In this document: piece after piece, positions 7,728-48,916 of the stretch | Layout: each line of letters opens with the position of its first letter | Numbering within the stretch: position 1 is the first letter of the stretch | Translations under genes and position numbers: made by a program | The notes under the pieces: model-generated | Told to the model about the DNA's origin: nothing | Seen by the model: only the letters and a program-made list of their open reading frames with translations | Databases searched by the model: none | Origin: a virus | Reading direction: 5' to 3' (one strand) | IMG/VR virus record: IMGVR_UViG_3300017967_000039 | Span: 1-48,916 of that record | Length of the DNA stretch: 48,916 bases

Positions 7728-7733
7728 TTGTAT

Positions 7734-7740
7734 AGAGGAA
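7734..7740 (+). promoter_or_regulatory. Ribosome binding site deciding the gp6 start
   Basis: AGAGGAA lies eight bases before the ATG at 7749. A TTG at 7728 is in frame but upstream of this site, so the ATG at 7749 is the supported start. Confidence 0.7.
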
Positions 7741-7748
7741 TTACAAGC

Positions 7749-29437: not shown

Positions 29438-29438
29438 G

Positions 29439-31385: not shown

Positions 31386-31397
31386 TATGCAAAATGC

Positions 31398-31405
31398 GAT
31401 AAATA
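31398..31405 (+). promoter_or_regulatory. T4-type late promoter before the third fibre gene
   Basis: GATAAATA lies 23 bases before the ATG at 31429, in the 43-base gap after the second fibre gene. It is identical in core to the promoter at 26781. AGGGG at 31418-31422 serves as ribosome site. Confidence 0.65.
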
Positions 31406-31428
31406 ATATTAAGCATTAGGGGTAAAAA

Positions 31429-34021: not shown

Positions 34022-34372
34022 ATGGATGATAAACTTAAAAACGCTTTAGAATTTGCCAATTATTCGCACACATTGCACAATCAAAAACAACTTATCAAGC
34101 AGAAGTTTATTGACGATTGTGTATTTTATCATAATGCTGGTAAATTTACAGTTAATAGAGAGTTGCTAGTTTATTGTGGATATTGTCAACAATGGAACAG
34201 GAATATTCCTGTAATTTTACTTGATGATAATAATATTCCTATAGAAATAAAAGATATTGATAAATTTACAATAGATATACTAAAACTTTACAAAAAATCT
34301 TCAGAAGAATATCACAATGCTTATCAAAAATTAGTTGGTAATAAAACTGTAAAAGGACTAATTGATGAGTAA
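34022..34372 (+). CDS. Conserved-looking small protein, function unknown
   Basis: This 116-residue soluble protein is the first gene behind the sigma70 promoter, with AGGAG seven bases before its ATG. I do not recognise a family. It is rich in Lys, Asn and Tyr, has a central CGYC pair of cysteines in a hydrophobic strand (ELLVYCGYCQQW), then a VILLDDNNIPIEI hairpin and a C-terminal helix (KKSSEEYHNAYQKLVG). Its stop codon overlaps the next gene by eight bases, so the two are translationally coupled. The CxxC could be structural, metal-binding or redox; nothing decides between these. Confidence 0.7.
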   Translation: MDDKLKNALEFANYSHTLHNQKQLIKQKFIDDCVFYHNAGKFTVNRELLVYCGYCQQWNRNIPVILLDDNNIPIEIKDIDKFTIDILKLYKKSSEEYHNAYQKLVGNKTVKGLIDE

Positions 34373-35168
34373 AGGATGTCTAGTTTTTGCATTCAACAAT
34401 GAAAAGATAGACTACATAAAACAAGCAACATATCTTGCTAAAAATGTTAGTAAGTATTTGAATTTGCCGACTACGCTAGTAACTGATGTAGAAGTTGAAT
34501 CAAAAGAGTTTGATCAAATTTTAGTTATAGAAGATTCATTTTACAAAAGTAAAAAAACATATCATGATGGCAATCTTGCAAATGAAAGATTAACTTTTAA
34601 AAACGCCGCAAGAATAAAATCTTATGAACTTTCACCTTATGATAATACATTTGTATTTGACACAGATGTTTTGCTTGCAAATGATAATTTTTTAAAATGT
34701 TTTGATCAAGAGAAGTCAGTTTGTATGTATGATAAATCTTTTGATGTGTGTTCATATAGAAAATCTCAAGAATTTACATGGATTAGTGATATAGGTTGCA
34801 AGTTTTACTGGGCAACTTGTCTATACTTTAAAAAAGATGATCAGTCTAAAATGTTTTTTGAAGTTGTAAATCATGTATATGAAAATTATTCATATTATAA
34901 GCGTTTGTATCAAATAAATTCTAACCTATATAGAAATGATTTTGCTTTCAGTATTGCAGCACATATTATGAACGACTATCAAAAAGGTGATTTTGTAGGT
35001 AGTATGCCGGACACTATGTACTACAGTTTAGATACAGACAAAATATTAAGCATAAACAATGACAATTTTTTGTTTTTAAGTTATATAAACAATAAACCCT
35101 TGGCCATAAAAACAAAAAAACAAACAGTTCATGCTATGAACAAGTATGATTTGGAAAAATTGCTATGA
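34365..35168 (+). CDS. GT-A-like glycosyltransferase, paralogue 1
   Basis: The 267 residues look like a nucleotide-sugar glycosyltransferase of the GT-A fold. There is an N-terminal strand (CLVFAFNNEKIDYIKQA), a TTLVTD strand at 36-41, and YELSPYDNTFVFDTDVLL with a DxD-type metal site at D99-T100-D101. A late histidine near 257 (VHAMNKYD) may complete the active site as in GT8-like enzymes. It would act in the cytoplasm; donor and acceptor are unknown. It is clearly related to the next gene (SPYD-x-T-x-V/F, then DxD or ESD). The start at 34365 (ATG overlapping the upstream stop by eight bases) is preferred over an upstream TTG. Confidence 0.65.
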   Translation: MSKGCLVFAFNNEKIDYIKQATYLAKNVSKYLNLPTTLVTDVEVESKEFDQILVIEDSFYKSKKTYHDGNLANERLTFKNAARIKSYELSPYDNTFVFDTDVLLANDNFLKCFDQEKSVCMYDKSFDVCSYRKSQEFTWISDIGCKFYWATCLYFKKDDQSKMFFEVVNHVYENYSYYKRLYQINSNLYRNDFAFSIAAHIMNDYQKGDFVGSMPDTMYYSLDTDKILSINNDNFLFLSYINNKPLAIKTKKQTVHAMNKYDLEKLL

Positions 35169-35923
35169 CACAAGGATATTTAATATATGCTCAAGGTGTA
35201 AAACATAAAAAATATGCGTTACATTGTGCTAAAAGTTTAAAAAAACTTGGAGATACTAGACCTATAAGTTTAGTAACCGACGAAAAGAAACCTAGTGATT
35301 TAAAAGTATTTGATTATATTATAGAAATTGAAAAAAACAATGATAAGTTTCATGTACAAAATAGATCTAAATTGTTTGAGTATTCTCCATATGACGAAAC
35401 TACAGTAATAGAAAGTGATTGCATAATTACTCAAGATTTAAACAACTGGTGGACAAGGAATAAAACTAAAGAATTATCCTTTATAAGTCAAGCCTATACA
35501 TATAGACAAGAAAAATTAGACACAACTGTGGATAGAAAAACTTTTTTAGAAAATAATTTACCAAATCTTTATGTAGCATTGCACTATTTTAAAAAAACTA
35601 AATTTACAAAAAGTTTTTTTGATTTAGTAAGTCTAATTAACACCGATGAAGATTTACGCAAGAAGTTATTACCTAATAGAAATCCTAAAATTCCTAGCAT
35701 GGATGTAGCAATATGTTTAGCGACCAAATTGCTTGATTGCGAAGACGCTGTAAGTTATACAGGATTAGACCCAATGTTTATTCATATGAAACCTTATGCT
35801 CAAGGATGGCAAGAACCATTTGAACAATGGAGTAAACGCATACATTATTTTCCTGGTGATGAAATTTTTGTAGGTCCGTTTAAACAAAAAGGTGTATTTC
35901 ATTATATAGAGGATGTAATATGA
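35165..35923 (+). CDS. GT-A-like glycosyltransferase, paralogue 2
   Basis: The 252 residues share the plan of the preceding protein: N-terminal YLIYAQGVKHKKYALHC, SLVTDE at 35-40, then FEYSPYDETTVIESDCII. Here the acidic metal-binding triplet is E83-S84-D85, not D-T-D, so metal binding or activity may differ. PSMDVAICLATKL (about 178-190) and IHMKPYAQGWQEPFEQW follow. It overlaps its neighbours on both sides by four bases (ATGA), so it is made together with them. Function as a sugar transferase is inferred from fold pattern and paralogy; the substrate is unknown. Confidence 0.6.
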   Translation: MTQGYLIYAQGVKHKKYALHCAKSLKKLGDTRPISLVTDEKKPSDLKVFDYIIEIEKNNDKFHVQNRSKLFEYSPYDETTVIESDCIITQDLNNWWTRNKTKELSFISQAYTYRQEKLDTTVDRKTFLENNLPNLYVALHYFKKTKFTKSFFDLVSLINTDEDLRKKLLPNRNPKIPSMDVAICLATKLLDCEDAVSYTGLDPMFIHMKPYAQGWQEPFEQWSKRIHYFPGDEIFVGPFKQKGVFHYIEDVI

Positions 35924-36420
35924 TTTTTTATGTTTACTTTGACAATGAAACTAGAGAAATTGTTAGTATTACAAATGAAAAAATAGAATCTAATCATTCG
36001 TATGTAGAAAAACAACGCAATGACGTAGAAGATTTTATTCAAGGTAGAAAAAATTTTGTAGATTTTAAGTTTGATAGTAGATTTAATTTTGTTGTAAAAA
36101 ACAAACAAACAAAAGATGTTGTAACTAATACTTTTGTAGAAATTAAAACTAAAATAAATCCTATGCTAAATGTTACACACAATAATTGTTGGCAATTTAG
36201 TTTTGAAAAACCAAATCAAAGCATAAACGGAGACTTATTTTTTGCGGTTACAGAAAAAAATAATCCTAACAAATTAATTAGGACAATACATTTTAATAGC
36301 CAACTAGCAAACAGTGTGTATGAAGTAGATTTTAAATACAACAGCGAGAAAAGTATAAAGAATATTAGTATATGGGCAATAAATCCGCCTTATGAATCAG
36401 CAGGACTACAAACAAAATGA
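35920..36420 (+). CDS. Hypothetical protein in the glycosyltransferase operon
   Basis: I do not recognise this 166-residue protein. It is Asn/Lys/Phe-rich, predicted beta-rich and soluble, with one cysteine and no obvious catalytic motif. The N-terminal strand FYVYFDNETREIVSIT and C-terminal ISIWAINPPYESAG are its most distinctive parts. A beta-sandwich carbohydrate-binding or structural role would fit the neighbours but is a guess. It is joined to both neighbours by four-base ATGA overlaps, so it is clearly part of the same operon and expected to be translated. Confidence 0.65.
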   Translation: MIFYVYFDNETREIVSITNEKIESNHSYVEKQRNDVEDFIQGRKNFVDFKFDSRFNFVVKNKQTKDVVTNTFVEIKTKINPMLNVTHNNCWQFSFEKPNQSINGDLFFAVTEKNNPNKLIRTIHFNSQLANSVYEVDFKYNSEKSIKNISIWAINPPYESAGLQTK

Positions 36421-39227
36421 GTCAAGAATTTAAAGTTTATGATTATGATATAATTTATCTCAGCTATGACGAACCAAATGCTGAAGAAAATTACTACGAT
36501 CTAAAACAAAAGATTCCATGGGCAAAACGCATACATGGAGTAGAAGGATCTGATGCAGCACACAAAGCCTGCGCAGAATTATCTGAAACTGAACGTTTTA
36601 TTACTATCGACGGAGATAATAAAGTATCTCATAATTTTATTTCTGAAGAACTACATTTTAGTGACGACAAAGATCTAAGCAAATGTGTCATAAGTTTTAG
36701 TGCATATAACATGATAAATGGTCTTGTATACGGTAACGGCGGAATAAAATGCTGGCCAACAGAGCTTGTCAAAATTATGCGTACACACGAAAACGCAGAT
36801 CCTGACAATACTGCTGCAGGAATTGATTTTTGTTGGGATTTAGAATACTTGCAAATTAACAAACTTCACAGTCATGTTTACAATAACGCAACACCGTGGC
36901 AGGCTTGGAGAGCCGGATTCCGTGAAGGTGTAAAAATGAGTCTGCTCGAAGGCAAAAAACCAGACAAGGACAAATTTAATACACAAGTTGCAAGAAAAAA
37001 TCTTGATAGGTTAAAAATTTGGACAACAGTGGGCGAGGATGTAAAAAATGGTCTTTGGGCAATCTATGGAGCTCGCGAAGGTGTGTATAAAACCATGTGT
37101 ACAGACTGGGATTATGTAAATGTTCGTGACTTTGAGTATCTAAATAATTTATGGAAAGAAGAATACAGTAAAATACGTGAAGAGGATTTAAGATACGAAA
37201 TAATAGGACTAGGGCACACACTGAGAGAAGAATTAGATCTTAATATTCCTGTAGATCATTACAATACTGAACAAAGTAAGTTTTTTAAAAGTGTTTATAC
37301 ACCGCCAGAAAGAGCTCCTCAGACGTTTTTATCTGAAAAAGAAAAATCAGAATATGATATTGTAATGATTAGTTACAACGAACCTAATGCAGAAGAAAAT
37401 TATCACAAACTAAAAACACGTTTCCCCCGTGCAAAGCGTATTCACGGTGTAAAAGGAATTCCAAAAGCACATCAGGAAGCTGCAAAACTTTGTAAAACAG
37501 ATTTAATTTGGATAGTTGACGGTGATGCTGATATAAAAGATGATTTTAATTTTGATTACAAGTCGCCTAACCATGAAATGAACTATGTTAAGGTTTGGAG
37601 AAGCGAAAATCCAGTAAATGGGTTGAAATATGGTTACGGCGGAGTAAAACTTTTTCCTAGACAGGCAACAATTGAAATGGATATTACCAAACCCGATATG
37701 ACCACTAGTATCAGCAGGCATTTTAGACCTATGCCTAGTGTAAGTAATGTAACTTCCTTCAATACAGATGCATTTAGTGCATGGAAAAGTGGATTTAGAG
37801 AATGTGCAAAGCTAGCCAGTAGCATTATAGATAGACAAAAGCAAGACGAAACAGACAAACGTCTTACAGCCTGGTGTCAAGATGCTGACCAATCTATACC
37901 TTTTGCTAATGAAGCAGTTCAAGGTGCAAGAGAAGGAAGAAAGTATGGTGAAAAATTCAAAAATAATCTAGAGAAATTAAATCTTATAAATGATTTTGAC
38001 TGGTTGCAACAGCAATTCAAAAAAAGCTATAAAACTGAGGATAAACCTTCACAGACAACCAATGATAACGCAGACGAATTTGTAAAAGAAATTTTAGATA
38101 GATTTGAAATATTATATCCTAAAGAAAAAGTTAGTAATTTTAGGAGATTTTATTCTTCACAGGAACTTACAAGTTTATTCAAACTCGTAGATAACGATGA
38201 TTTAAGAAAAGCAATAGTAGAAAAAAATCTACACAGTATTTTTAGATTAGTAGACGTTGACGATGATTTAAGAAAAGCAATAGTAGAAAAAAACCTACAT
38301 AGTATTTTTAGAATAGTTGAAACCGATGATGATTTAAGAAAAGCAATAGTAGAAAAAAATCTACACAGTATTTTTAGATTAGTAAATGCTGACGATGATT
38401 TAAGAAAAGCAATAGTAGAAGAAAACTTGCATAGCATTTTTAGATTATTAGATAATGATGATCTAAGGAAAGCAGTAATTGATAAAAACATGTACAGTCT
38501 TGCGAGATTACTACCAGAACTTCAAGACGAAATGAAAGTTGCGTTGAACAACGATCAATATGCGCTATGGAGAGTGTTAGAAAATTATACTAGTAGTTCT
38601 TTAATTAAACCTATAAAAACGTTAGTAAATGAAAATAAAAACTTTGACAAAGATTGTATTAGTAGAGGACAACTCAAAAGTAAAATATGGTTAATTGATA
38701 CACTATTACAACTTGATGTGAAATTAGGCAATGTATTTTTATGTGCTGGTTGGTATGCTACTATAGTTCCTCTTTTAGTTGAAAAAGGATTACAGTTTAA
38801 TTCCATAAGAAGTTTTGACATTGATCCAGATGTTTGGAAAATTTCGGAAATATTTAACAAAGATCTAGTTGCAAATGGTTGGAAATTTAAAGCTCAAACT
38901 TTAGATATACATGATTTAAAATATGATGAATTTAAATTCACAACTATTAAAAGCAATGGTGAAACAGAACAATTAAAAGAAAGTGCTAATACAATTATTA
39001 ATACAAGTTGTGAACACATAGAAAACTTTAGTGAATGGTATAATAAAATACCAACAGGTAAATTGGTCATTTTACAAAGTAATAATTATTTTGAACTGCC
39101 AGAACATGTAAATTGTGTAGAGGATTCTGTACATTTTGAAAAAATGGCACCGTTTAGTAAAGTATTGTTTACCGGAGAACTTGAATTAGAAAAATATACG
39201 AGGTACATGAGAATTGGATATAAGTAA
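36417..39227 (+). CDS. Fusion of two glycosyltransferase-like domains, a 22-residue repeat array and a methyltransferase-like domain
   Basis: The 936 residues have four parts. Two copies of a GT-A-like domain occupy about 8-285 and 313-535. Each starts with D-I-x-x-x-S-Y-x-E-P-N-A-E-E-N-Y, then A-K-R-I-H-G-V, and carries an Asp-Gly-Asp triplet (65-67; 369-370 with the preceding Asp at 368) and a YGxGGxK segment. Residues about 588-720 are tandem 22-residue repeats. Residues about 745-936 look like a SAM-dependent methyltransferase: VFLCAGWYATIVPLL (773-787, loop I), IRSFDIDPDVW (797-807, acidic loop) and NTSCEHI (862-868). The likely role is sugar transfer plus methylation on one scaffold. 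It overlaps both neighbours, by 4 and 14 bases. Confidence 0.65.
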   Translation: MSQEFKVYDYDIIYLSYDEPNAEENYYDLKQKIPWAKRIHGVEGSDAAHKACAELSETERFITIDGDNKVSHNFISEELHFSDDKDLSKCVISFSAYNMINGLVYGNGGIKCWPTELVKIMRTHENADPDNTAAGIDFCWDLEYLQINKLHSHVYNNATPWQAWRAGFREGVKMSLLEGKKPDKDKFNTQVARKNLDRLKIWTTVGEDVKNGLWAIYGAREGVYKTMCTDWDYVNVRDFEYLNNLWKEEYSKIREEDLRYEIIGLGHTLREELDLNIPVDHYNTEQSKFFKSVYTPPERAPQTFLSEKEKSEYDIVMISYNEPNAEENYHKLKTRFPRAKRIHGVKGIPKAHQEAAKLCKTDLIWIVDGDADIKDDFNFDYKSPNHEMNYVKVWRSENPVNGLKYGYGGVKLFPRQATIEMDITKPDMTTSISRHFRPMPSVSNVTSFNTDAFSAWKSGFRECAKLASSIIDRQKQDETDKRLTAWCQDADQSIPFANEAVQGAREGRKYGEKFKNNLEKLNLINDFDWLQQQFKKSYKTEDKPSQTTNDNADEFVKEILDRFEILYPKEKVSNFRRFYSSQELTSLFKLVDNDDLRKAIVEKNLHSIFRLVDVDDDLRKAIVEKNLHSIFRIVETDDDLRKAIVEKNLHSIFRLVNADDDLRKAIVEENLHSIFRLLDNDDLRKAVIDKNMYSLARLLPELQDEMKVALNNDQYALWRVLENYTSSSLIKPIKTLVNENKNFDKDCISRGQLKSKIWLIDTLLQLDVKLGNVFLCAGWYATIVPLLVEKGLQFNSIRSFDIDPDVWKISEIFNKDLVANGWKFKAQTLDIHDLKYDEFKFTTIKSNGETEQLKESANTIINTSCEHIENFSEWYNKIPTGKLVILQSNNYFELPEHVNCVEDSVHFEKMAPFSKVLFTGELELEKYTRYMRIGYK
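38178..38576 (+). repeat. 66-bp in-frame tandem repeats encoding 22-residue units
   Basis: The block gatgatttaagaaaagcaat recurs at 38196, 38262 and 38328 and again in the fourth unit, exactly 66 bases apart, with nearly identical DNA between. The first four protein units share DLRKAIVEKNLHSIFR with small changes; two more diverged units follow (DLRKAVIDKNMYSLAR and a weaker one). The low divergence points to recent duplication. The units are helical and amphipathic and probably stack as a solenoid or spacer between the transferase and methyltransferase parts. Confidence 0.85.
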
Positions 39228-39444
39228 CCTAACACTTAGACAGTTGCAGCAAGAAAGTGCTAGAGCACTAAGTACTATGCAAGCAACAAACAACAACATA
39301 TACCAATTTAATCAACAAGCACACCATAATAGTCAAAATTGGTATATGGCAGTTATTAAATGGTATGTTGAAAAATATGGAGATTTACCTAGCCGAATTG
39401 GTCCAGGTAAAGATGTAAAATTAGTATTGGAAGATCATGATTAA
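39214..39444 (+). CDS. Small protein (76 residues) immediately before the first radical SAM gene
   Basis: The frame starts at a TTG at 39214 inside the end of the previous gene, with GAGG ten bases upstream and an in-frame TGA just before. An ATG at residue 21 lacks a ribosome site. The protein is Gln/Asn-rich and helical at its start (SNLTLRQLQQESARAL), then has NWYMAVIKWYVEKYGDLP and a short tail. It has no cysteine and no membrane segment. It overlaps the following radical SAM gene by eight bases. It is probably real because coupling is tight on both sides and the frame fills the only gap. Function is unknown; a substrate or partner of the radical SAM enzyme is one idea. Confidence 0.6.
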   Translation: MDISNLTLRQLQQESARALSTMQATNNNIYQFNQQAHHNSQNWYMAVIKWYVEKYGDLPSRIGPGKDVKLVLEDHD

Positions 39445-40576
39445 CAAACTTAATTGTTTAGCGCCATACGGTCATTATCATCTAGATGTACACGGTTACG
39501 CAAAACCTTGTTGTTGGTGGATGATAGATCCTAATAGAAAATTATCAGAATTTTCATGTTTAGAAGAAATAGGAAAGTTTCATGCAAACATGATGTTAGA
39601 TGATAACTTGTTAGACACTTCGTGTGCTAAATGTATCCTATACGAACAAAAAGATACAAATAGTCTGCGTAATATTATTCATAGAAATGTTACGGAGCAA
39701 GACGAATTGCATAGGCCTGTTGAATTAGAAATAAGTTTAGACAGTGTATGTAATTTTGCATGTATTATTTGTGACAGTGCTAGAAGTAGTAAATGGAGAA
39801 GTTTACAAAAGAAAGTAGATTGGACTCCAAAGCAAAATTCAGAAGATCCATCTCATTTTGAAACTGTAATGCGTCTTTTGAAAAACAGTGATCTTTCACA
39901 ATTAAAAGAAATAAAAATGTTAGGCGGCGAACCTTTTTATACAAAGAAATTTCATGAATTTGTAAATTTAATTAGTGAAAAATGTGATATATCAAAAATT
40001 ACACTAATGATAACAAGTAACATGTCTGTATTTCCCAATGACGAATTATATAAGACGCTGTTTAGATTTAAAAAAATAAAATTAATGGCAAGTTTAGATG
40101 CCATAGGAACTACAGCAGAAGTAGTAAGATTTGGTACAAAATGGAAACAAGTTGACAAAAATATTACACGTTGGATAGAAGAAGTTAATAGGCGTAATGG
40201 CGAAGGCATATCACTAGCATTTGGACCAACATTCAGTTTATACAATCTAGAACATGTTAATACTTTAAAAAATTGGTACGTAAGAAAAACAAGATTTAAA
40301 TTTTATATGGTTTTTACATTAGCAAGAGAACCTTATCTTACAATAGAAAATTTAGATAAAGAATTTAGAAGTCAATTTGACAAACATCTGTTCCCCCATC
40401 CTAGATGGAGTATGGGAGAAGATTTTTTTAGCAAATGGCCTAAAAAAGAAAATGTAGATTATGATTTAATATACAGATACATTGATACATATTCAACTAT
40501 GACCGGAACAGACATTGCTAGTACAATACCAAAAACAATGGAACAATTAGAAAAACAACGCAGGGATATTTCATGA
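39437..40576 (+). CDS. Radical SAM protein 1, with N-terminal twitch-like cysteine module
   Basis: The 379 residues carry a radical SAM CxxxCxxC at C105-C109-C112 (CNFACIIC), which binds the 4Fe-4S cluster that cleaves S-adenosylmethionine, and a GGEP motif at 163-166 for the SAM amino group. The N-terminus has C7, a C25-C26 pair after a G-x-x-x-P and C63/C66 (CAKC), a layout that suggests an auxiliary cluster (twitch/SPASM-like) placed before the catalytic barrel. Genes 5 and 6 of this series have the same plan. The substrate is unknown. It overlaps its neighbours by eight and four bases. Confidence 0.8.
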   Translation: MINKLNCLAPYGHYHLDVHGYAKPCCWWMIDPNRKLSEFSCLEEIGKFHANMMLDDNLLDTSCAKCILYEQKDTNSLRNIIHRNVTEQDELHRPVELEISLDSVCNFACIICDSARSSKWRSLQKKVDWTPKQNSEDPSHFETVMRLLKNSDLSQLKEIKMLGGEPFYTKKFHEFVNLISEKCDISKITLMITSNMSVFPNDELYKTLFRFKKIKLMASLDAIGTTAEVVRFGTKWKQVDKNITRWIEEVNRRNGEGISLAFGPTFSLYNLEHVNTLKNWYVRKTRFKFYMVFTLAREPYLTIENLDKEFRSQFDKHLFPHPRWSMGEDFFSKWPKKENVDYDLIYRYIDTYSTMTGTDIASTIPKTMEQLEKQRRDIS

Positions 40577-41319
40577 AAAAAATAGCAGTAATTGGTTGTA
40601 GTTTTAGTAGATGGATTGAACCAAAATTCCGTGATAAACCGCATAAAGCAAAATGTTGGCCTTTTGCATTATCTCAGATCAACGAAGATTTAGAAGTACA
40701 CAACTATGCAATGTATGCAAATTCTTGCAACATGCAATATTTTCAGGCTGTTGAATTTATAAAACGTAAGCAAGAATATGATGCATTCGTTGTACAATGG
40801 ACCACAGAAAATAGATTTACTTTTATGATAAATCCTAAAGAGCCATTACCGTATTTAAGAATTACACAGTATTCAGATAAAATTCCTAACTATTTTCATA
40901 TTCCGGAAGAAGAAAATAAATGGATGAATATTAATAATGAAATGATGCATATATCTCCAGGTGTGCTAAAAAGATTTACAGATAGAGAAATTAAAAATAA
41001 TCGATTTTTATCAGCTGGCGTAACTTTTATGACCAACGGTGTTGGTGTAGGTGGATATTATGGGTCTAGAGAATCTATTAAAGCATTACAATTTACACTG
41101 AAAGAAATAGCAAAAAGTTCTGGAGCACCATTATACCAAATGGATTGGCTTGATAGACAAGACAGTGTAATAGAAAATGATATAGACACTGTAGATTTAA
41201 TTGTCGAGAAACATTTTAGTTTTAAAGAATATGTTGCAGATGAAGGATATCATTTTAACAGTGCAGGCTCAGATGCAGTTGCCGCAAAAGTAAATGATTG
41301 GATAAAAAATAATGTATAA
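40573..41319 (+). CDS. SGNH/GDSL-hydrolase-like protein
   Basis: The 248 residues begin IAVIGCSFSRW, which fits block I of SGNH hydrolases with the catalytic serine in G-x-S (S10), and end with DEGYHFNSAGSDAVAAKV (about 222-239), which fits block V with Asp and His three to four residues apart. A block III-like Asn is plausible at NGVGVGGYYGS (about 155-165). Such enzymes remove or transfer acyl groups, for example O-acetyl groups on glycans. There is no signal peptide, so it would act in the cytoplasm or in the virion. It sits between two radical SAM genes with four- and eight-base overlaps, so it is part of the same pathway. Confidence 0.65.
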   Translation: MKKIAVIGCSFSRWIEPKFRDKPHKAKCWPFALSQINEDLEVHNYAMYANSCNMQYFQAVEFIKRKQEYDAFVVQWTTENRFTFMINPKEPLPYLRITQYSDKIPNYFHIPEEENKWMNINNEMMHISPGVLKRFTDREIKNNRFLSAGVTFMTNGVGVGGYYGSRESIKALQFTLKEIAKSSGAPLYQMDWLDRQDSVIENDIDTVDLIVEKHFSFKEYVADEGYHFNSAGSDAVAAKVNDWIKNNV

Positions 41320-42379
41320 TTACCAAGATATAAAAACAATTCATTTAGAAGTCACACAAAATTGTCAAGCTGCATGTCCTATGTGTGATCGAAACATGAA
41401 TGGTGAAGGAATAAATCCACATATTAATCTTGATGAACTTACACTAGAAGATTGCAAACGTATTTTTCAACCAGAATTTATAAAACAACTTAACACAATG
41501 TACATGTGCGGCAACTTAGGTGATCCTATTGTTGCACGAGATACATTGGAAATATTCAAATATTTTAGAGAGCAAAACCCTACAATGTGGTTAAGCATGA
41601 ACACAAACGGAGGAGCAAAAAATGCAGATTGGTGGAGTGAGTTGGCCCATGTCTTCGGAAGAATGGGGGCTGTTATTTTTAGTGTGGACGGTCTTAGCGA
41701 TACGAATCATGTTTATAGACAAGGGGTAGTATGGAATAACGTAGAACGTAACATGCGAGCGTTCATAGATGCAGGAGGTAGAGCTCGCTGGGATTTCCTT
41801 ATTTTTGAACACAATCAGCACCAAGTAGAAGAAGCTGAAGCATTAGCAAATGAGTGGGGCTGTGAAAAATTTATGAAAAAGAAAACAGGAAGATTCATTG
41901 ATACAAAATCAAACAAAAAAGAAAAGCACCAAGCCAAAGACCGCAAAGGCAAAGATTCAGCAGAGCTTAAAAAGCCAGACGCAAAATACCAGAACAAAGC
42001 TCTCAGCAAGCAAGAAACTATACTCAAGAAATACGGTAGTATGGACGCATATTATGATGCGGCTCCTATCATTTGTAAAGTTAAAAAAGAAAACAGTTTG
42101 TTTATCACAGCAGAAGGACTAGCATTACCTTGTTGCTGGACTGCTGGGCGTATGTACAAATGGTGGCATAAAGATCCTAAAGTTGAACAGATATGGGACT
42201 TTATACCAGATAAAAATGCTATTGATGCACGTAATGGTTTACAAAAAGTTTTTGAAACTGGTATATTTGAAGAAATACAAGCCAGTTGGAGTAAACAAAG
42301 TTGTGATAATGGAAAACTCAAAGTGTGTGCAATGAAGTGTGGCGCCGAGTTCGATCCTTTTACAGAGCAGTTTAAATAA
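41312..42379 (+). CDS. Radical SAM protein 2, SPASM-type, non-canonical GDP motif
   Basis: The 355 residues have CQAACPMC (C18-C22-C25) in a short N-terminal strand. Where most family members have GGEP it has CGNLGDP (66-72). SMNTNGG (95-101) and a DGLSDTNHVYR stretch (126-136) follow the usual barrel order. C-terminal cysteines C255, C274-C275, C331, C339 and C343 suggest a SPASM-like domain with one or more extra clusters. A Lys-rich insert (about 186-245) separates the two halves. It is closely related to the next two genes (DWWSEL, then R-N-M-x-A-(F/Y), then AGGRA). These enzymes often modify peptides or sugars; the substrate is unknown. Confidence 0.82.
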   Translation: MYNYQDIKTIHLEVTQNCQAACPMCDRNMNGEGINPHINLDELTLEDCKRIFQPEFIKQLNTMYMCGNLGDPIVARDTLEIFKYFREQNPTMWLSMNTNGGAKNADWWSELAHVFGRMGAVIFSVDGLSDTNHVYRQGVVWNNVERNMRAFIDAGGRARWDFLIFEHNQHQVEEAEALANEWGCEKFMKKKTGRFIDTKSNKKEKHQAKDRKGKDSAELKKPDAKYQNKALSKQETILKKYGSMDAYYDAAPIICKVKKENSLFITAEGLALPCCWTAGRMYKWWHKDPKVEQIWDFIPDKNAIDARNGLQKVFETGIFEEIQASWSKQSCDNGKLKVCAMKCGAEFDPFTEQFK

Positions 42380-42390
42380 GTACGTATATA

Positions 42391-43422
42391 ATGAATATCG
42401 ATAACATTAAAAAGATTGAACTTGAAATTACAAGTGACTGCAATGCAGCCTGCCCAGGCTGTGCTAGAACACAAAATTTAGATATACTAGAAATTAATAG
42501 TTTTAAGTTATCTGATCTTGTGCGATTGTTTCCTAATGAAAGATATATCAAAAATAAACAGTTTAAATTTTGTGGTGTGCTTGGCGATCCTGCACTTAAC
42601 AAAGATGCAGTTGAAATGACTCGTTATCTTTCTGAACAAGGAGGGTACAGTCAATGGAGTACAAACGGAGCATATCAAACAACAGATTGGTGGTCTGAAT
42701 TAGGAAAAATTAGTAAAAAAACCAAATTGGTAGATGTAAATTTTTGCGTAGACGGACATAAAGAAACTAATCATATCTATAGAGTAGGTACTAATTGGAA
42801 AGTGCTTGAACGGAATATGCAAGCATATAGCGATGCTGGCGGCAGAGCAACTTGGATTTTTATAGTATTTGATCATAATGAACACGAATTAGAATCTGCA
42901 AAAGCACATGCGAACAAATTAGGATTTAAGTTTGCAACTAGAACAGGCATGCGTAATAGTTACCATGATTGGGTTGCAAAAATAGGTAAGAAAAATGATC
43001 AAAAAGAAGTTGTTATAACAACAACAGGTGACAAAGAACATAGTAAAAAAGATCAAGTACAAAAACTTGACAAACTTATAAAAGAAAACAAAGTAGATAA
43101 AGAAGTAATTAGCACAGTTAAATGTAAACTAATACACGAAGGCGAAATATTTATAAGTGCAAAGCAAGAGCTTTGGCCGTGTTGTTTTTTATGGGATAGT
43201 GCTTTTAAAAACAAAGAAAACATTTTAGAAAAACTCGATGAATATTCTACAGGTTGGAATAATCTAAAAACAAAAACTATTAATGATGTTTTACTGCATC
43301 CTTGGTTTGATAAAATACTAAGTGAAAGTTGGAACCCTGCTCATGACAAGCATCTTCCAAGATGTATAAAAACTTGTGCATATAACAAAGCATATCAGAA
43401 TGAGATAAAACATGTGGTCTAG
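42391..43422 (+). CDS. Radical SAM protein 3, SPASM-type paralogue
   Basis: The 343 residues are paralogous to the preceding protein: CNAACPGC (C17-C21-C24), CGVLGDP at 61-67 in place of GGEP, STNGAYQTTDWWSEL, DGHKETNHIYR, and AGGRATWIFIVFDHNEHEL. The C-terminal cysteines C245, C264-C265, C325 and C329 again suggest a SPASM-like auxiliary cluster. A charged Lys-rich linker lies at about 197-240. It is the only gene of the cluster separated from its predecessor, by 11 bases. Its stop overlaps the next start by 11 bases. The tandem position points to gene duplication with substrate divergence. Confidence 0.82.
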   Translation: MNIDNIKKIELEITSDCNAACPGCARTQNLDILEINSFKLSDLVRLFPNERYIKNKQFKFCGVLGDPALNKDAVEMTRYLSEQGGYSQWSTNGAYQTTDWWSELGKISKKTKLVDVNFCVDGHKETNHIYRVGTNWKVLERNMQAYSDAGGRATWIFIVFDHNEHELESAKAHANKLGFKFATRTGMRNSYHDWVAKIGKKNDQKEVVITTTGDKEHSKKDQVQKLDKLIKENKVDKEVISTVKCKLIHEGEIFISAKQELWPCCFLWDSAFKNKENILEKLDEYSTGWNNLKTKTINDVLLHPWFDKILSESWNPAHDKHLPRCIKTCAYNKAYQNEIKHVV

Positions 43423-44353
43423 TGAAACGTTAGAATGGATTGATATAGAACTTACAAGTTTTTGCAACATTAAGTGCAAAGGCTGTTTTCGTGTGCTTTC
43501 CAAAGAAGCAGATAAAATATTAAACAAAACTTATCTTGATGTAAATGTAATTAAAGAAAAGTTTCAAAAAGAAATGTTTCCTAATATCAAAATTATTAAT
43601 TTTTGTGGAAGTGTAGATGAGCCAACTACGCATCCAGATTTTTTTGAAATTATAGAACATTTTGCAAGTTGGGATTGCCATATTAATATTGCTACTAACG
43701 GTAGTCTACGCACCACAAACTGGTGGGCAAAACTTGCAACAATACTTCCATTTAGTCATAAAGTTACCTGGGGAATAGACGGCAGTGATGAACTCAGCGA
43801 ACAATACAGAGAAGGTAGTAGTTTTAAAAAAGTAAGAGACAATTGGAGAGCTTTTATAGGCGCCGGCGGCAAAGCAAATTGGCAGTTTATAAGTTTTGAG
43901 CATAACGAACATCAACTCGAAATAGCAAGACAAATGGCTAAGGATGAAGGGTTTAAAGAGTTTAAAACAATTATTAGTCATAGAAAAGACACTGGCGATA
44001 TTAAACACAAAAAAGTAGAAGTAGAAGAATCGCCTTGTATTAGTTGTAAATATGGAAATCAAAAACGAATCTTCGTAAACCATATGGGCAATGTTATACC
44101 GTGCTGTCATCTTAACAGTAAAATGTTAGAATTTGCAGTTAACAACAAACAAAAAGACAAATTTGAAGAAATACTTGTTGATAATGATTATCTAAATGAC
44201 ATTAATTTAAAAAATGTAAGTTTAGAACAAGCAATGACAGGAAAAGTTTGGACAGCAATACAAAATAGTTGGACCGGAAATGATCGTATACCTAAGTGTC
44301 AAAGTACTTGTAAAGAGAACAAGCGTGACAAATTTATAAAGGAAAAATTATAA
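43412..44353 (+). CDS. Radical SAM protein 4, SPASM-type paralogue
   Basis: The 313-residue protein is the third member of the paralogous set: CNIKCKGC (C18-C22-C25), CGSVDEP at 65-71 in the SAM-binding position, IATNGSLRTTNWWAKL, and AGGKANWQFISFEHNEHQL. It has the shortest linker of the three. The C-terminal cysteines are C209 and C212 (CISC), C231-C232, C296 and C300, giving enough ligands for an auxiliary cluster. The order within the triplet (motifs GDP, GDP, DEP) suggests separate steps on related substrates. The stop overlaps the next start by one base (TAATG). Confidence 0.8.
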   Translation: MWSSETLEWIDIELTSFCNIKCKGCFRVLSKEADKILNKTYLDVNVIKEKFQKEMFPNIKIINFCGSVDEPTTHPDFFEIIEHFASWDCHINIATNGSLRTTNWWAKLATILPFSHKVTWGIDGSDELSEQYREGSSFKKVRDNWRAFIGAGGKANWQFISFEHNEHQLEIARQMAKDEGFKEFKTIISHRKDTGDIKHKKVEVEESPCISCKYGNQKRIFVNHMGNVIPCCHLNSKMLEFAVNNKQKDKFEEILVDNDYLNDINLKNVSLEQAMTGKVWTAIQNSWTGNDRIPKCQSTCKENKRDKFIKEKL

Positions 44354-45762
44354 TGAGCAAAGACGGATTACCATCAGATACTTTTTGTTTGTTACCATGG
44401 GTACATCTTAGCACAAGACCAGATGGCAGTATGCGTGTATGTTGTACAGCCAATGCAAGTTCAGTGGGTCCGACTAACGATAAAGAACACGGTGGTCAAG
44501 TAGGTATTCTTAAAACAGAAGATGGTAAACCTAACAATTTAAATGTAAGTGACTTTGAAACAGCATGGAATAGCACTTATATGAAAAATGTACGCTTACA
44601 AATGCTTAACGGCGAAATGCCTCCTAGTTGTTTAAAATGCTACAAAGAAGAAGCAGCAGGACACAGGTCAAAACGCATGTGGGAAACAAACTATTGGAGA
44701 CAACGTGTAGATTTAGATAAAATACTACAAGAAACAAACCCAGATGGTAGTGTTCCTCCTAATCTAGCATACATCGATTTACGTTTTGGTACAAAATGTC
44801 AATTAGCTTGTGTTATGTGTTCACCGCATGACAGTAGCGGATGGATCAAAGACTATAAAGCAATCTTTCCAGCTGTAAAAAATGAATCTTTGAAAGAGAT
44901 TATGCAATGGAAAGACAAAGGATCTACAAACGGTAGTAGTTATAATTGGCACAAACAAAATCCTACATTTTGGAAACAATTCTATGAACAGATGCCAAGT
45001 ATGCAACAAATTTATTTTGCTGGCGGCGAAAGTCTTATTATTGAAGAACATTACGAAATACTTGAACATGCTATTAAAATGGGATATGCAAAAGATTTAG
45101 AACTACGGTATAATTCAAACGGTGTTGAATGGCGCGAAGATTTATTTGAATTATGGAGTCATTTTAAATTAGTACGTTTCCATTATAGCATTGATAGCAT
45201 TAAAGAAATGAACAGTTATATACGTTATCCTAGCGAATGGGATAATCAAGTAAACACTTTTCATAGATTAGACAAAGAAACAACTGACAACGTAGAAGTT
45301 ACTATTGCTTGTGCTGTGCAAGCTCTAAATATATATTATTTGCCAGATCTTATACAATGGAAACTAGAACAAAATTTCCAAAAAGTAAACATGTGGCCAT
45401 TTGGCGCAGGCGGTATTAGTCAACACTTTGTATACTGGCCAGCACATTTAAATGTAAAAGTATTACCCAAATGGTTTAAAGAAGAAACAAGACGCAAGTA
45501 CGAAGCATGGTATCCTTGGTGGGAGGCTAATTGGGAATTAGGTATTCCGAGCTGGCACAAAGGTAAAGTAGATTATGATACTTGGAGAAATGCTGAATAT
45601 GGTATCAAACGCTTGAATGGTATTTTAAGTTTTATGGAATCAGAAGACTGGAGCATACGTTTACCTGAAATGAAAGAGTTTCTATCTCTTTGTGACAAAC
45701 AACGTGGTATAACTTTTGATCAAACATTTCCAGAAATGAAGGATATTTTTAAAGATGTCTAA
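44353..45762 (+). CDS. Radical SAM protein 5, N-terminal twitch-like type
   Basis: The 469 residues have the N-terminal pattern FCLLPWVHLS, then DGSMRVCC (C12, C30-C31) and CLKC (C93/C96). The catalytic CQLACVMC follows at C149-C153-C156, and AGGESLI at 223-229 takes the GGEP position. YNSNGVEW and HYSIDSI follow in barrel order. The last 130 residues are Trp-rich (VNMWPFGAGG, WYPWWEANWELGIPSWHKG) and could bind a sugar or aromatic substrate. The family with this N-terminal cysteine module is one I associate with marine phages and bacteria, where it is of unknown function. The gene overlaps its neighbours by one and eight bases. Confidence 0.82.
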   Translation: MSKDGLPSDTFCLLPWVHLSTRPDGSMRVCCTANASSVGPTNDKEHGGQVGILKTEDGKPNNLNVSDFETAWNSTYMKNVRLQMLNGEMPPSCLKCYKEEAAGHRSKRMWETNYWRQRVDLDKILQETNPDGSVPPNLAYIDLRFGTKCQLACVMCSPHDSSGWIKDYKAIFPAVKNESLKEIMQWKDKGSTNGSSYNWHKQNPTFWKQFYEQMPSMQQIYFAGGESLIIEEHYEILEHAIKMGYAKDLELRYNSNGVEWREDLFELWSHFKLVRFHYSIDSIKEMNSYIRYPSEWDNQVNTFHRLDKETTDNVEVTIACAVQALNIYYLPDLIQWKLEQNFQKVNMWPFGAGGISQHFVYWPAHLNVKVLPKWFKEETRRKYEAWYPWWEANWELGIPSWHKGKVDYDTWRNAEYGIKRLNGILSFMESEDWSIRLPEMKEFLSLCDKQRGITFDQTFPEMKDIFKDV

Positions 45763-47083
45763 GTTACCTTGTTATTACGCTCATGGTGGCCTAAATTATA
45801 AAAATGGGTTTGCAACCACTTGTCCTATCAGTGGAGCAAGGCTTAAAATGCTTGACGATGATCAAGTTCCTAGCGAGTTTTGGAATAACGAGCAATTCAA
45901 AGAATATAGAAAAATGTTAGATAAAGGTGAATGGCCTTTACATTGTCACCTTTGCAAAGAATCAGAAGAAATAGGCGTTCATAGTATGCGTCAAGACGTA
46001 GAAGCTGATTTAACACATTACAATCCGGAAACGGGTGAAGTTGATTTCAAAGGTCTAAAACATATTGAGTTACGATTTAGTAATGCATGTAACATGGCTT
46101 GTATGCATTGTTCAGAAGTTTTTAGTAGTCAATGGGGTAGTAGATTAAAAAATTATGTACCCGACGAAGAAGACGTAAAGCACAATTTAACTCAACTTCT
46201 TAAAACTGAACACAGATGGGGAGCAGATGATAAAACGAAAATTGATTTACGGTTATCTGATGTTTATAAAATTGTAAACGATTTAAACACAAACTTTCCT
46301 AACATAGAAAAAATAGACTTTGCAGGTGGAGAAGTACTTTTCCAAAAACAATTTTTTCCTACATTAGAAATGTTAAGCAAGCATCCTAATGCAAAAAACA
46401 TTTTTATATTTTTCCATACAAACTTCAATGCTGATTTTGATATTTTAAGATTGAGTGAGTTATTAAAACCATTTGGTAAAAGCAAAATTAAAATAAGTGT
46501 AGATTCTAGTGATAAAATTTATAGTTATTTTAGAGACGGTAGTTCAGATCAACTTACAAAAAATCTACAACAGTTTTGTGCAGTAAATGATTTTACGCAA
46601 GTGGATTTAGTAAACACAACAAGTGTATACCAAATAATGGATATTAAAAATGTATACAAATACTTCTTAAGTTTACATCTTAATAATATTACTACTAGCA
46701 TAGTATACACACCTCCGTACATTAACCCGGCAATCATGATGCACAAATTTAAAGATGAAGTTCTACAGGATATTGCAGACACTAAAAAAATGTTAAAAAA
46801 AGCAATTGAAAAGAGAAAAAAAGAAGCTAATGGAAATCCAGATGATTATCCCAAATATTCTAGATGTTGGCTTAAAGGAAAACAACACTTTTCAGATATT
46901 GAAACTGCATTGCAAGGTATAGCCGAAGTAGAAAAATATGTACAGTCTCATAAAACTTCGCTTAAAGATTGGGAAGCATTTTTAAGTTACAGCAAAAAGA
47001 TAGATAAACTTTGGAAAAAAGATTTTAATCAACATTTTGAAAACTACAAAAGAATTGATGACAATATAGTGAGAGTAAAATGA
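45755..47083 (+). CDS. Radical SAM protein 6, N-terminal twitch-like type
   Basis: The 442 residues are built like gene 5. The catalytic CNMACMHC is at C112-C116-C119 and AGGEVLF at 190-196. The N-terminus carries C6, C23, C64 and C67 (CHLC), but the Cys-Cys pair of gene 5 is replaced by a single cysteine (ATTCPISG). IRLRFSNAC-type wording before the cluster (IELRFSNACNMAC) matches gene 5 (IDLRFGTKCQLAC), showing common origin. The C-terminal part is helical and Lys-rich, with one late cysteine (YSRCWLKG). The gene ends in a four-base overlap with the PP-loop gene, suggesting coupled production. Confidence 0.8.
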   Translation: MSKLPCYYAHGGLNYKNGFATTCPISGARLKMLDDDQVPSEFWNNEQFKEYRKMLDKGEWPLHCHLCKESEEIGVHSMRQDVEADLTHYNPETGEVDFKGLKHIELRFSNACNMACMHCSEVFSSQWGSRLKNYVPDEEDVKHNLTQLLKTEHRWGADDKTKIDLRLSDVYKIVNDLNTNFPNIEKIDFAGGEVLFQKQFFPTLEMLSKHPNAKNIFIFFHTNFNADFDILRLSELLKPFGKSKIKISVDSSDKIYSYFRDGSSDQLTKNLQQFCAVNDFTQVDLVNTTSVYQIMDIKNVYKYFLSLHLNNITTSIVYTPPYINPAIMMHKFKDEVLQDIADTKKMLKKAIEKRKKEANGNPDDYPKYSRCWLKGKQHFSDIETALQGIAEVEKYVQSHKTSLKDWEAFLSYSKKIDKLWKKDFNQHFENYKRIDDNIVRVK

Positions 47084-48234
47084 AAAATCTATACAAACAA
47101 TTTGAGTACGATAAAGATTTTGATTGCAAACAAGTCAATCTAGTTGTTAACAACGATACAAATAGACAAATAACAAATTTAAACAAGTTGCTAAAAGAAC
47201 TTTTAAGTTACAATGCAATGGATATAACTGTAGTGGAAGATCAAGACGCCACTATAAAGGCAGTAAGGCTTGTAATGGAACCAAGCGTAAAAAAAGAGCT
47301 TGATATCTTTGACCAAAAAATTGCTAACTATACAGCAGACGACAGAAAAACTTATAGACTTAAAAAAATTAATCAACAAGCAGAAATTTGTACGCATTGG
47401 CTCAAGCAAGAAATTGCAAAATTACAAAAGCGTAGAATGCATTTGTATGCCAATAACTTACAAAAAGGTGGATTACTAATACATGAAGTCAATGGTGTGC
47501 AAATACCTTTAAATCCAAATTGGAAACGCATTGCTGTTAATTTATCAGGCGGAGCAGATAGTGCTTGTTTAACATCTATACTAGCAAATATAATCAAAGA
47601 AAATAAATTAGAAATAATTATAGACATTATAACGCACACTAGAGTATGGGAAGTAAGACCATGGGCTGGACCGGTTAGTATTCAAGTTTACAAAAAATTA
47701 CAAAAAATCTGGGGCAACATAATAGGTGAAAGAATAACAAATTTTATTCCTACAGAATTAGAACATGGAGTTATAGGAAATTTAAATGAGCTTGAAGACA
47801 GAAGTCCAGACCAAGTAATAGTATCTAGATTTAATGATTATCTAGGAACAGTAAAAAAATATGATGCAATATATAATGCTACAACCAAGAATCCTAGTAT
47901 CGATAAAGAATTATTAGACAGAATGAAAAATAGAGATATTGAAAATATTGATGTAGAAACTTTGGCTATTCCTACAAACTACGGATACTGGATGATATCA
48001 CCGTTGCGTTTTATTGAAAAAGATTGGATAGTAGAGCAATACTACAAAATGGATCTAGTTGATTTATTTGAAACAACAAGAAGTTGTGAAGGAAATCAAG
48101 GAAATATAAGTTTACTTGATGGTTTAGATGTACATTGGTATAACGAAGACAAAGAAGTACCTGAATGCGGAAAGTGTTTTTGGTGCAAAGAACGTGAATG
48201 GGCAATCAAACAAGTAGAACAGAGGTTGAAATGA
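47080..48234 (+). CDS. PP-loop ATPase with QueC-like cysteine cluster
   Basis: The 384-residue protein has the PP-loop pyrophosphatase signature SGGADS at 156-161 inside RIAVNLSGGADSACL, used to adenylate a substrate with ATP. Its C-terminus has C336 (TTRSCEG) and C363-G-K-C366-F-W-C369, the four-cysteine layout of the QueC family (7-cyano-7-deazaguanine synthase), which binds zinc. Unlike QueC (about 230 residues) it has a 145-residue N-terminal extension, mostly helical and Lys/Gln-rich, of unknown role. It may activate a carboxylate or ring carbon on a substrate handled by the surrounding radical SAM enzymes. The exact reaction cannot be stated; an asparagine-synthase- or tRNA-modification-like activity is also possible. 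Confidence 0.72.
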   Translation: MKNLYKQFEYDKDFDCKQVNLVVNNDTNRQITNLNKLLKELLSYNAMDITVVEDQDATIKAVRLVMEPSVKKELDIFDQKIANYTADDRKTYRLKKINQQAEICTHWLKQEIAKLQKRRMHLYANNLQKGGLLIHEVNGVQIPLNPNWKRIAVNLSGGADSACLTSILANIIKENKLEIIIDIITHTRVWEVRPWAGPVSIQVYKKLQKIWGNIIGERITNFIPTELEHGVIGNLNELEDRSPDQVIVSRFNDYLGTVKKYDAIYNATTKNPSIDKELLDRMKNRDIENIDVETLAIPTNYGYWMISPLRFIEKDWIVEQYYKMDLVDLFETTRSCEGNQGNISLLDGLDVHWYNEDKEVPECGKCFWCKEREWAIKQVEQRLK

Positions 48235-48916
48235 GTTTTGATACAATAGATTTATTAACTGGAAAAGTTTTTCAAGTAACATGGGATACCGGAAGGCGTT
48301 GCAACTACGATTGTTCCTATTGTCCTGCAATACGTCATGATAATTTTTCGCCCCATGCAACTCTTGAAGAATTAAAAAATAATACAGATTTTTTATATGA
48401 ATATATTGATTTACATATGCAATATAGGAATTTTAAATTTGCAAGTATTAGTTTTACAGGCGGTGAGCCAACTGTTAATCCAAACTTTATACCTTTTATA
48501 AAATACCTAAAAGAAGAATACAAACAAAAATATGCAGACAAATGGAAAGCAAGTTTTGCACTAACTACAAACGGTGCTATGGGTAAAAAAATGGCAGATA
48601 ATGTCATGGAAAACTTTGGATTTGCTACGGTAAGTTACCATGCAGAAAGCGACAATAAATTGAAACAGCAGGTTAGAGATCGTATTTTACAATTTTCTAA
48701 AGAAGGTCCTGAACACGATTTTGGAGTAAGTGTAAATGTAATGTTCCATGCCGCTTATTTTGATGAATGTAAAGAACTGTGCGATTGGTTACATGACAAC
48801 AAAATAAAATATGTTCCAAGAATAATCGGAGAAGAACCAGGAAGTCGTAGTAACTTTGCTCATGAATATAACGATGAGCAATTAGATTATATGAAAAACT
48901 ATTGGAAATATAAAAA
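48231..48916 (+). CDS. Radical SAM protein 7, cut by the window end
   Basis: The frame starts at the ATG at 48231, overlapping the PP-loop stop by four bases, and is open to the end of the window (228 codons seen). It carries CNYDCSYC at C24-C28-C31 and a fully canonical TGGEPT at 76-81, and ALTTNGAMG at about 106-114. It is a different branch from genes 1-6: there is no N-terminal cysteine module, and the WDTGRRCNYDCSYCPA start is distinctive. It does not have the WCDT stretch typical of QueE, so I do not call it QueE despite its PP-loop neighbour. The C-terminal half and any SPASM domain lie outside the window. Confidence 0.8.
   Translation, partial: MSFDTIDLLTGKVFQVTWDTGRRCNYDCSYCPAIRHDNFSPHATLEELKNNTDFLYEYIDLHMQYRNFKFASISFTGGEPTVNPNFIPFIKYLKEEYKQKYADKWKASFALTTNGAMGKKMADNVMENFGFATVSYHAESDNKLKQQVRDRILQFSKEGPEHDFGVSVNVMFHAAYFDECKELCDWLHDNKIKYVPRIIGEEPGSRSNFAHEYNDEQLDYMKNYWKYK

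Follow-up and report, generated by a model that had tools for sequence, protein, structure and literature searches.

A radical SAM-rich gene cassette beside phage tail fibres shares most of its core with Bdellovibrionota and may tailor a glycan

Introduction

Enzymes of the radical S-adenosylmethionine (SAM) superfamily, rSAM enzymes, are normally few per pathway. How does a phage come to carry seven of them in a single array, and what would they be used for? The question is raised by IMGVR_UViG_3300017967_000039, a 48,916-base virus fragment from IMG/VR, the whole of which is the window analysed here. Nine genes fill its right end (39437-48914), seven of them for rSAM enzymes. An initial annotation made from the sequence alone had read a multi-step pathway from these genes and had left the product unsettled, counting glycan tailoring among the possibilities; the latter position is upheld here. 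Its argument from metabolic cost, by which seven such enzymes are a heavy investment for a phage, is plausible. Comparison with relatives revealed a core of a predicted glycosyltransferase (GT)-methyltransferase (MT) fusion, a small orphan protein named c7 and two rSAM enzymes, which is surrounded by exchangeable tailoring genes and which, except for c7, recurs in Bdellovibrionota. We put at about even the chance that the block is the phage version of a Bdellovibrionota-type rSAM-rich system, assembling and tailoring an unusual surface-type glycan. The fusion, c7 and the Bdellovibrionota link had all escaped the initial annotation.

The scale is considerable: as many as 22 rSAM domains occur in a single viral record, and among predatory bacteria some genomes reach as many as 42 enzymes of the N-terminal-twitch (N-twitch) kind. 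The accessory genes that surround the strongly constrained core are almost wholly exchanged. Should the cassette make a surface glycan or modify the virion, a large reservoir of untried C-H activation chemistry would take part in phage-host recognition.

The radical SAM enzymes

Genes are named here by their first position or by family, and those named from the window lie on the + strand. The motif CxxxCxxC stands at the expected position in all seven rSAM genes and every product matches the Pfam family Radical_SAM (PF04055), six of them over the hmmscan cut-off, so that the number given by the initial annotation is borne out. The remaining protein, 45755, scores 29.3 against a cut-off of 29.5, and its assignment rests on the NCBIfam family NF033640 (N_Twi_rSAM), in which it reaches 205.7 bits against the curated cut-off of 170. 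Three proteins pass this cut-off: TWI-C (39437..40576; 178 bits, with 32 bits for PF04055), TWI-A (44353..45762; 419 bits) and TWI-B (45755..47083; 206 bits). TWI-A belongs to the core, while TWI-B and TWI-C are accessory. The family scores, together with synteny in relatives, exclude a chance origin of the rSAM calls.

Three further proteins, the core enzyme SPA-A (41312..42379; PF04055 33 bits) and the accessory SPA-B (42391..43422; 30.4 bits) and SPA-C (43412..44353; PF04055 and PF13186 both over cut-off), have C-terminal cysteine sets of the SPASM/twitch kind, and within this trio only SPA-C passes Pfam SPASM. The looser Pfam SPASM cut-off is passed among the window rSAM proteins by only SPA-C and TWI-A, the latter having its SPASM-type domain at the N-terminus (24.3 bits). 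The strict seven-cysteine pattern CX9-15GX4C-CX2CX5CX3C-C fits none of the seven. The seventh gene, an accessory GGE-type enzyme of family c6 (48231..48914; PF04055 45.7 bits), is cut by the record end. It has 228 residues inside the window, its relatives have about 395 with an additional cysteine-rich C-terminal part, and it is 81% identical to its relative in L086. The division into three types proposed at the outset thus holds for the N-twitch enzymes, the C-terminal cysteine trio and the GGE enzyme, while the SPASM label fails in its strict form. Seven is a minimum, as the record stops before the cassette does.

Two other identities were considered and rejected. For a viperin-type antiviral enzyme the best NF038283 score, that of 48231, is 40.6 bits against a cut-off of 180. 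For QueE, the family matches are weak and the best rSAM families are N_Twi. Elsewhere among the relatives, two N-twitch units are fused in tandem within one protein of 831 residues (L013:14511-17006).

The translational coupling reported at the outset was also confirmed. Seven of the eight junctions among the nine genes 39437-48914 overlap, the sole exception being 42379/42391, and the coupled array begins before 39437, with the GT-MT gene at 36417 followed by c7 at 39214.

A constrained core with exchangeable neighbours

Relatives of TWI-A were found in at least 170 IMG/VR contigs. The best 80 of these, at 81-94% identity, served as the locus sample, and their genes are mechanical open reading frame calls. 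Relatives of c7 occur in at least 477 viral stretches. Among GenBank phages there was no close TWI-A, only Vibrio phage relatives at 20% identity, and c7 was not found. In 38 dereplicated TWI-A-anchored loci, SPA-A (identity to relatives up to 88%) is present in 36, the MT profile in 36, the profile of the N-terminal GT part (GTn) in 35 and c7 in 32. The corresponding counts are 14 for SPA-B, 12 for SPA-C, 16 for c6, eight for the PP-loop gene and seven for TWI-B. The c7-anchored sample gave the same picture, with MT immediately before c7 in all 79 loci that could be tested and SPA-A no more than 3.5 kb away in 53 of 62. The core therefore consists of the GT-GT-MT protein, c7, SPA-A and TWI-A, and the remainder is accessory.

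The genes are not scattered among homologous phages, an outcome that the initial annotation had named as fatal to its proposal. The core neighbourhood is common to dozens of contigs, and five loci keep the window order of SPA-A, SPA-B, SPA-C, TWI-A, a fused TWI-B+PP-loop protein and the GGE enzyme. The accessory genes SPA-B and c6 (p=1.3e-6), and likewise TWI-B and the PP-loop gene (p=6e-7), tend to occur together, although these values assume independent loci, an assumption that does not wholly hold here. What does not stand is one fixed seven-step route, as only 41312 and 44353 are core and the five other rSAM genes are exchangeable between relatives. Records around TWI-A contain 4 to 22 PF04055 matches, so that the seven of this truncated window are nothing unusual in the group.

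The turnover of the periphery is extreme. Pairs of loci whose TWI-A proteins are 75-94% identical share non-core neighbours at a Jaccard index of only 0.04-0.10. The accessory types in phages include sulfotransferase, CMP-sugar-type cytidylyltransferase, FkbM methyltransferase, carbamoyltransferase, 2-oxoglutarate (2OG) oxygenase, nitroreductase, FMN reductase, Asp/Arg hydroxylases and TauD-type oxygenases. Relative to the window proteins, the median amino-acid identity is 85% for TWI-A, 76% for SPA-A and 78% for SPA-C, while their fourfold sites, near saturation, show an identity of 0.46-0.48 (0.48 for TWI-A) where chance would give 0.38. The baseplate gp6 proteins of the same records are mostly 53-70% identical. 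TWI-A, with its protein identity kept while fourfold sites approach saturation and gp6 is far less identical, is unusually constrained and is under strong purifying selection.

The GT-GT-MT protein (36417..39227; 936 residues) is predicted to comprise tandem GT-A-type domains, short helical repeats and a C-terminal class I SAM methyltransferase, and it occurs in relatives either fused or as split genes; over 84 loci the GTn profile was found in 73 and the MT profile in 74. The repeats, of about 22 residues (DDLRKAIVEKNLHSIFRLV), link the two parts at residues ~590-710 and vary in number among relatives. A GTn relative of 854 residues in L016, L017, L029 and L030 (1306-3870) contains several copies of a segment of its GT-like domain, about 75 residues long.

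The gene c7 (39214..39444), which encodes a phage-only orphan protein of 76 residues, starts at TTG and overlaps its neighbours on both sides. In an alignment of 43 sequences, 24 residues are invariant and conservation extends along the whole length. The predicted structure consists of three helices with a predicted local distance difference test score (pLDDT) of 87, and a fold search of the PDB gave no match, only insignificant helical bundles. PDB profile matches to designed repeats and antibody chains over ~20 residues were discounted as chance.

Homologues in Bdellovibrionota

A genome scan gave Bdellovibrionota orthologues of TWI-A at 57-61% identity, among them some on long contigs (937 kb and 328 kb). 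They mostly adjoin SPA-A and an rSAM gene of family c4, and often MT and GTn. Of 192 sampled genomes of the phylum, 55 pass E<=1e-45. The genomes examined have up to 42 N-twitch rSAM matches each, mostly 10 or more. Among 59 other neighbours in eight TWI-A loci, 13 are GT2 glycosyltransferases; an OafA-like acyltransferase-SGNH protein, a GDP-mannose dehydratase/epimerase-type protein and asparagine synthase were also seen.

The Bdellovibrionota loci of the NF033640 family (L093, L094, L095, L098, L111, L117, L148) resemble those of the phages in TWI-A and, mostly, in its neighbours SPA-A, c4, MT and GTn, but they are cellular, use both strands, are rich in GT2 and have no c7. The phages are uncultured, and the shared core means that it can nevertheless be studied in Bdellovibrionota; studies of the function of these N-twitch loci were not found in the open-access literature.

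In the tree, all viral TWI-A sequences fall inside those of Bdellovibrionota (a 31-row fork with support 99/95), with a root that depends on distant outgroups. This nesting suggests a single transfer of TWI-A into phages. In the genome bins, no more than three contigs (L091, L097, L099) were found to have c7; they lie in metagenome-assembled genomes (MAGs) of Neisseriaceae, Rickettsiales and Gammaproteobacteria, and their TWI-A groups with the viral sequences. They are likely viral contigs mis-binned as bacterial.

What the cassette may make

The cassette probably decorates a surface glycan, because its predatory-bacterium relatives sit among sugar-chain genes. A kept core with swapped tailoring resembles O-antigen loci, and a constant core with changing tailoring enzymes next to tail fibres fits a recognition glycan. 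For the product and its chemistry we infer the following scheme. The GT domains of 36417 would build or extend a saccharide and its methyltransferase would cap or decorate it. The core rSAM enzymes would introduce a common modification via C-H activation, and the exchangeable ones would add strain-specific changes such as epimerisation, deoxygenation, dehydrogenation or cross-linking. The PP-loop enzyme might activate a carboxylate with ATP, for example for amidation, and the SGNH protein might add or remove acyl groups. The glycan, on virion fibres or on the envelope of the infected cell, would alter recognition or superinfection.

The structural evidence for glycosyl transfer comes from models. 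Foldseek matched the N-terminal half of 36417 to the K4 chondroitin polymerase (K4CP) at 5e-5, with a TM-score of only ~0.15, and the C-terminal domain to class I methyltransferases at 3e-5. The likeness to K4CP lies in the tandem GT-A domains and was found in the model only, as sequence similarity between the two was not found and the N-terminal half has no Pfam match. A DGD triplet at residues 368-370 is invariant in the alignment. On the tail-fibre side of the cassette lie two GT8-like candidates, one of cluster c10 (34365..35168), in which D99/D101 align as a DxD-type motif, and one c11-like (35165..35923), which belongs to the functionally unannotated phrog_1903. Searched by itself, the 34365 gene has no Pfam or PHROG match.

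Several points count against a glycan. The AlphaFold2 model of 36417 is poor overall (mean pLDDT 65, predicted TM-score 0.36), so that its GT-A match stands on two moderate domains, and the combined profile A8 of the GT8-like genes reaches glycogenin at a weak E=0.0017. A glycan pathway leaves c7 unexplained. Characterised SPASM enzymes act mostly on peptides, and neighbours such as the nitroreductases and Asp/Arg hydroxylases would suit peptide chemistry equally well. A bolder proposal, which we hold to be fairly improbable, is that phages and Bdellovibrionota share a hitherto undescribed class of biopolymer tailoring, with dozens of exchangeable N-twitch enzymes working combinatorially on one scaffold, and that phage c7 serves as carrier or acceptor for the GT-MT core, giving strain-specific coat or receptor chemistry.

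An alternative is that the rSAM enzymes, 2OG oxygenase, PP-loop protein and methyltransferase modify a protein, either c7 or the tail fibres, to yield a RiPP-like product (that is, of the ribosomally synthesised and post-translationally modified peptide kind) or a hypermodified adhesin. We regard it as possible, though on the unlikely side. SPASM and twitch enzymes are generally known to modify peptides often, c7 is a very small, almost invariant protein whose gene is in strict linkage with that of the methyltransferase, the tail fibres are adjacent, and the cassettes include Asp/Arg hydroxylases and TauD-type oxygenases. The QueC-family proteins QatC and Cap9, moreover, can act on proteins (PMC13329287, PMC11996544). 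Against it, c7 models as a three-helix bundle without division into leader and core, Bdellovibrionota loci with the same enzymes lack c7, glycosyltransferases dominate the cellular neighbours and the core itself contains GT-A-like domains. For c7, the only candidate examined, the role of RiPP precursor with a leader and a variable core is unsupported, as the protein is conserved throughout and models as folded.

A role that has nothing to do with glycans or virions, be it in making a diffusible small molecule or as a host-metabolism module (natural product, redox or cofactor), appears improbable. The nitroreductase, carbamoyltransferase, sulfotransferase and FMN reductase do recall natural-product loci and the accessory turnover is very high, but the position beside the tail fibres speaks against it, as do the GT-GT-MT core and the GT2-rich cellular context.

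The accessory PP-loop ATPase (47080..48234) raises another possibility, that of a modified nucleotide or DNA pathway of the 7-deazaguanine type with this protein as QueC and one of the rSAM enzymes as QueE. Matches to the QueC and QueE families exist, albeit weak, and the rSAM-rich Campylobacter phage CP220 has a QueD-like gene near its cluster. The motif SGGxDS was found in 30 of 30 PP-loop relatives, which agrees with the PP-loop ATPase assigned at the outset, and four cysteines are invariant in alignment A5, so that a variant cysteine site is possible. In these features the protein is like the QueC family (QueC, QatC, Cap9), with its SGGxDS PP-loop and C-terminal four-cysteine site; a weak PDB match to Cap9 was also obtained (E=0.0039). 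It differs in the spacing ahead of CxxCxxC, which is longer and variable: CxxCxxC is present in 27 of 30 relatives and the exact QueC zinc spacing C(x)8CxxCxxC in none. The motifs YxQxHxxE and VPxRN, by which QueC handles its substrate (PMC13329287), are each absent from all 30. The protein is thus QueC-like, with SGGxDS and the four cysteines kept, and is not QueC. With the best rSAM families being N_Twi rather than QueE, with no QueD or FolE match in the cassette scans, and with several PP-loop paralogues able to share one cassette, the nucleotide pathway is very improbable.

That the genes are hoarded or neutrally acquired and do little, a reading to which only the extreme accessory turnover lends itself, is hardly credible when TWI-A, SPA-A and SPA-C keep their protein identity although their fourfold sites are near saturation, reading frames are intact and overlapping, and the core linkage is fixed across many contigs.

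Comparison with known systems

Phages rich in rSAM genes are not new, as three reports describe them (PMC5332604, PMC7029224 and PMC2853527). From the portions available of the first two, the marine T4-like genome TARA_ERS488813_N000010 has 12 rSAM genes (PMC5332604), and pelagimyophages have rSAM cassettes and glycosyltransferases in a host recognition cluster (PMC7029224). These phages resemble the present one in the many rSAM genes, whereas those portions mention neither a conserved core or c7 nor a GT-MT fusion or a link to Bdellovibrionota. The Campylobacter phages CP220/CPt10 have 11-12 rSAM genes, an exchangeable five-gene module and nucleotide-sugar transferases nearby (PMC2853527). 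Their locus (L008) is rSAM-rich like the window and has a SPASM-like relative at 28% identity, but it differs in having an amidinotransferase, and the part of it that was examined showed no TWI-A, c7 or GT-MT core. In the open-access papers searched, neither the conserved core and c7 nor the origin in Bdellovibrionota or the scale of the system appears to be described, an absence that is weak evidence. A 2025 paper on a 'moraphage' lineage does not mention radical enzymes.

Outside the rSAM-rich phages, WbdD, the enzyme that methyl-caps O-antigen chains, is like 36417 in that a methyltransferase is tied to glycosyl transfer, though sequence similarity was not found. Pelagibacter phage Mosig (L009:9874-20273) has a tailoring-rich island at its tail fibres with three MoaA-type enzymes, Asp/Arg hydroxylases, nitroreductases and a carbamoyltransferase; it is similar to the cassette in style and is without its core.

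Further cassette genes, phage lineage and context

The SGNH-fold protein (40573..41319) is accessory and may be an acyl-ester hydrolase or transferase. It has an N-terminal GCS block and a C-terminal histidine, with G8, S10 and H227 invariant, and its profile matches thioesterase I at E=3.7e-5, in line with the SGNH-like hydrolase that the initial annotation had placed between the rSAM genes. Relatives of the SGNH and PP-loop proteins were not found by single-protein scans of viral contigs; they were found by iterated profiles on fetched loci. The fusion of TWI-B to the PP-loop protein occurs in five relatives (L045, L046, L058, L062, L063).

The phage origin taken for granted at the outset is supported. 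From the left, the window contains a late sigma factor, baseplate genes, a virion protein of 5188 residues, three tail-fibre-like genes and then the coupled cassette, which runs to the record end. The gp6-like baseplate wedge (7728..11216) is ~37% identical to Agrobacterium phage Atu_ph07, Sinorhizobium phage Phosso, Salicola phage SCTP-2 and Pseudomonas phage PA5oct. This identity places the phage, probably a marine one, near the jumbo phages of the Rak2/Atu_ph07 type. Records of cassette relatives extend up to 257 kb, and the relatives would be mostly marine, judging from marine MAG titles in the company of the cassette and general knowledge of IMG samples. No A-type Fe-S carrier was found to be encoded by phage in 13 long records.

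The three tail-fibre/adhesin genes (27425..32955) have PHROG tail and virion matches and the cassette is immediately downstream. The host recognition cluster of marine T4-like phages is a hypervariable island that follows the giant VrlC gene and adjoins the tail fibres; the cassette may be such a cluster, as it is hypervariable and adjoins tail fibres that themselves come after a giant virion gene. The latter (phrog_10938; 11216-26782) takes up 15.6 kb immediately ahead of the tail fibres.

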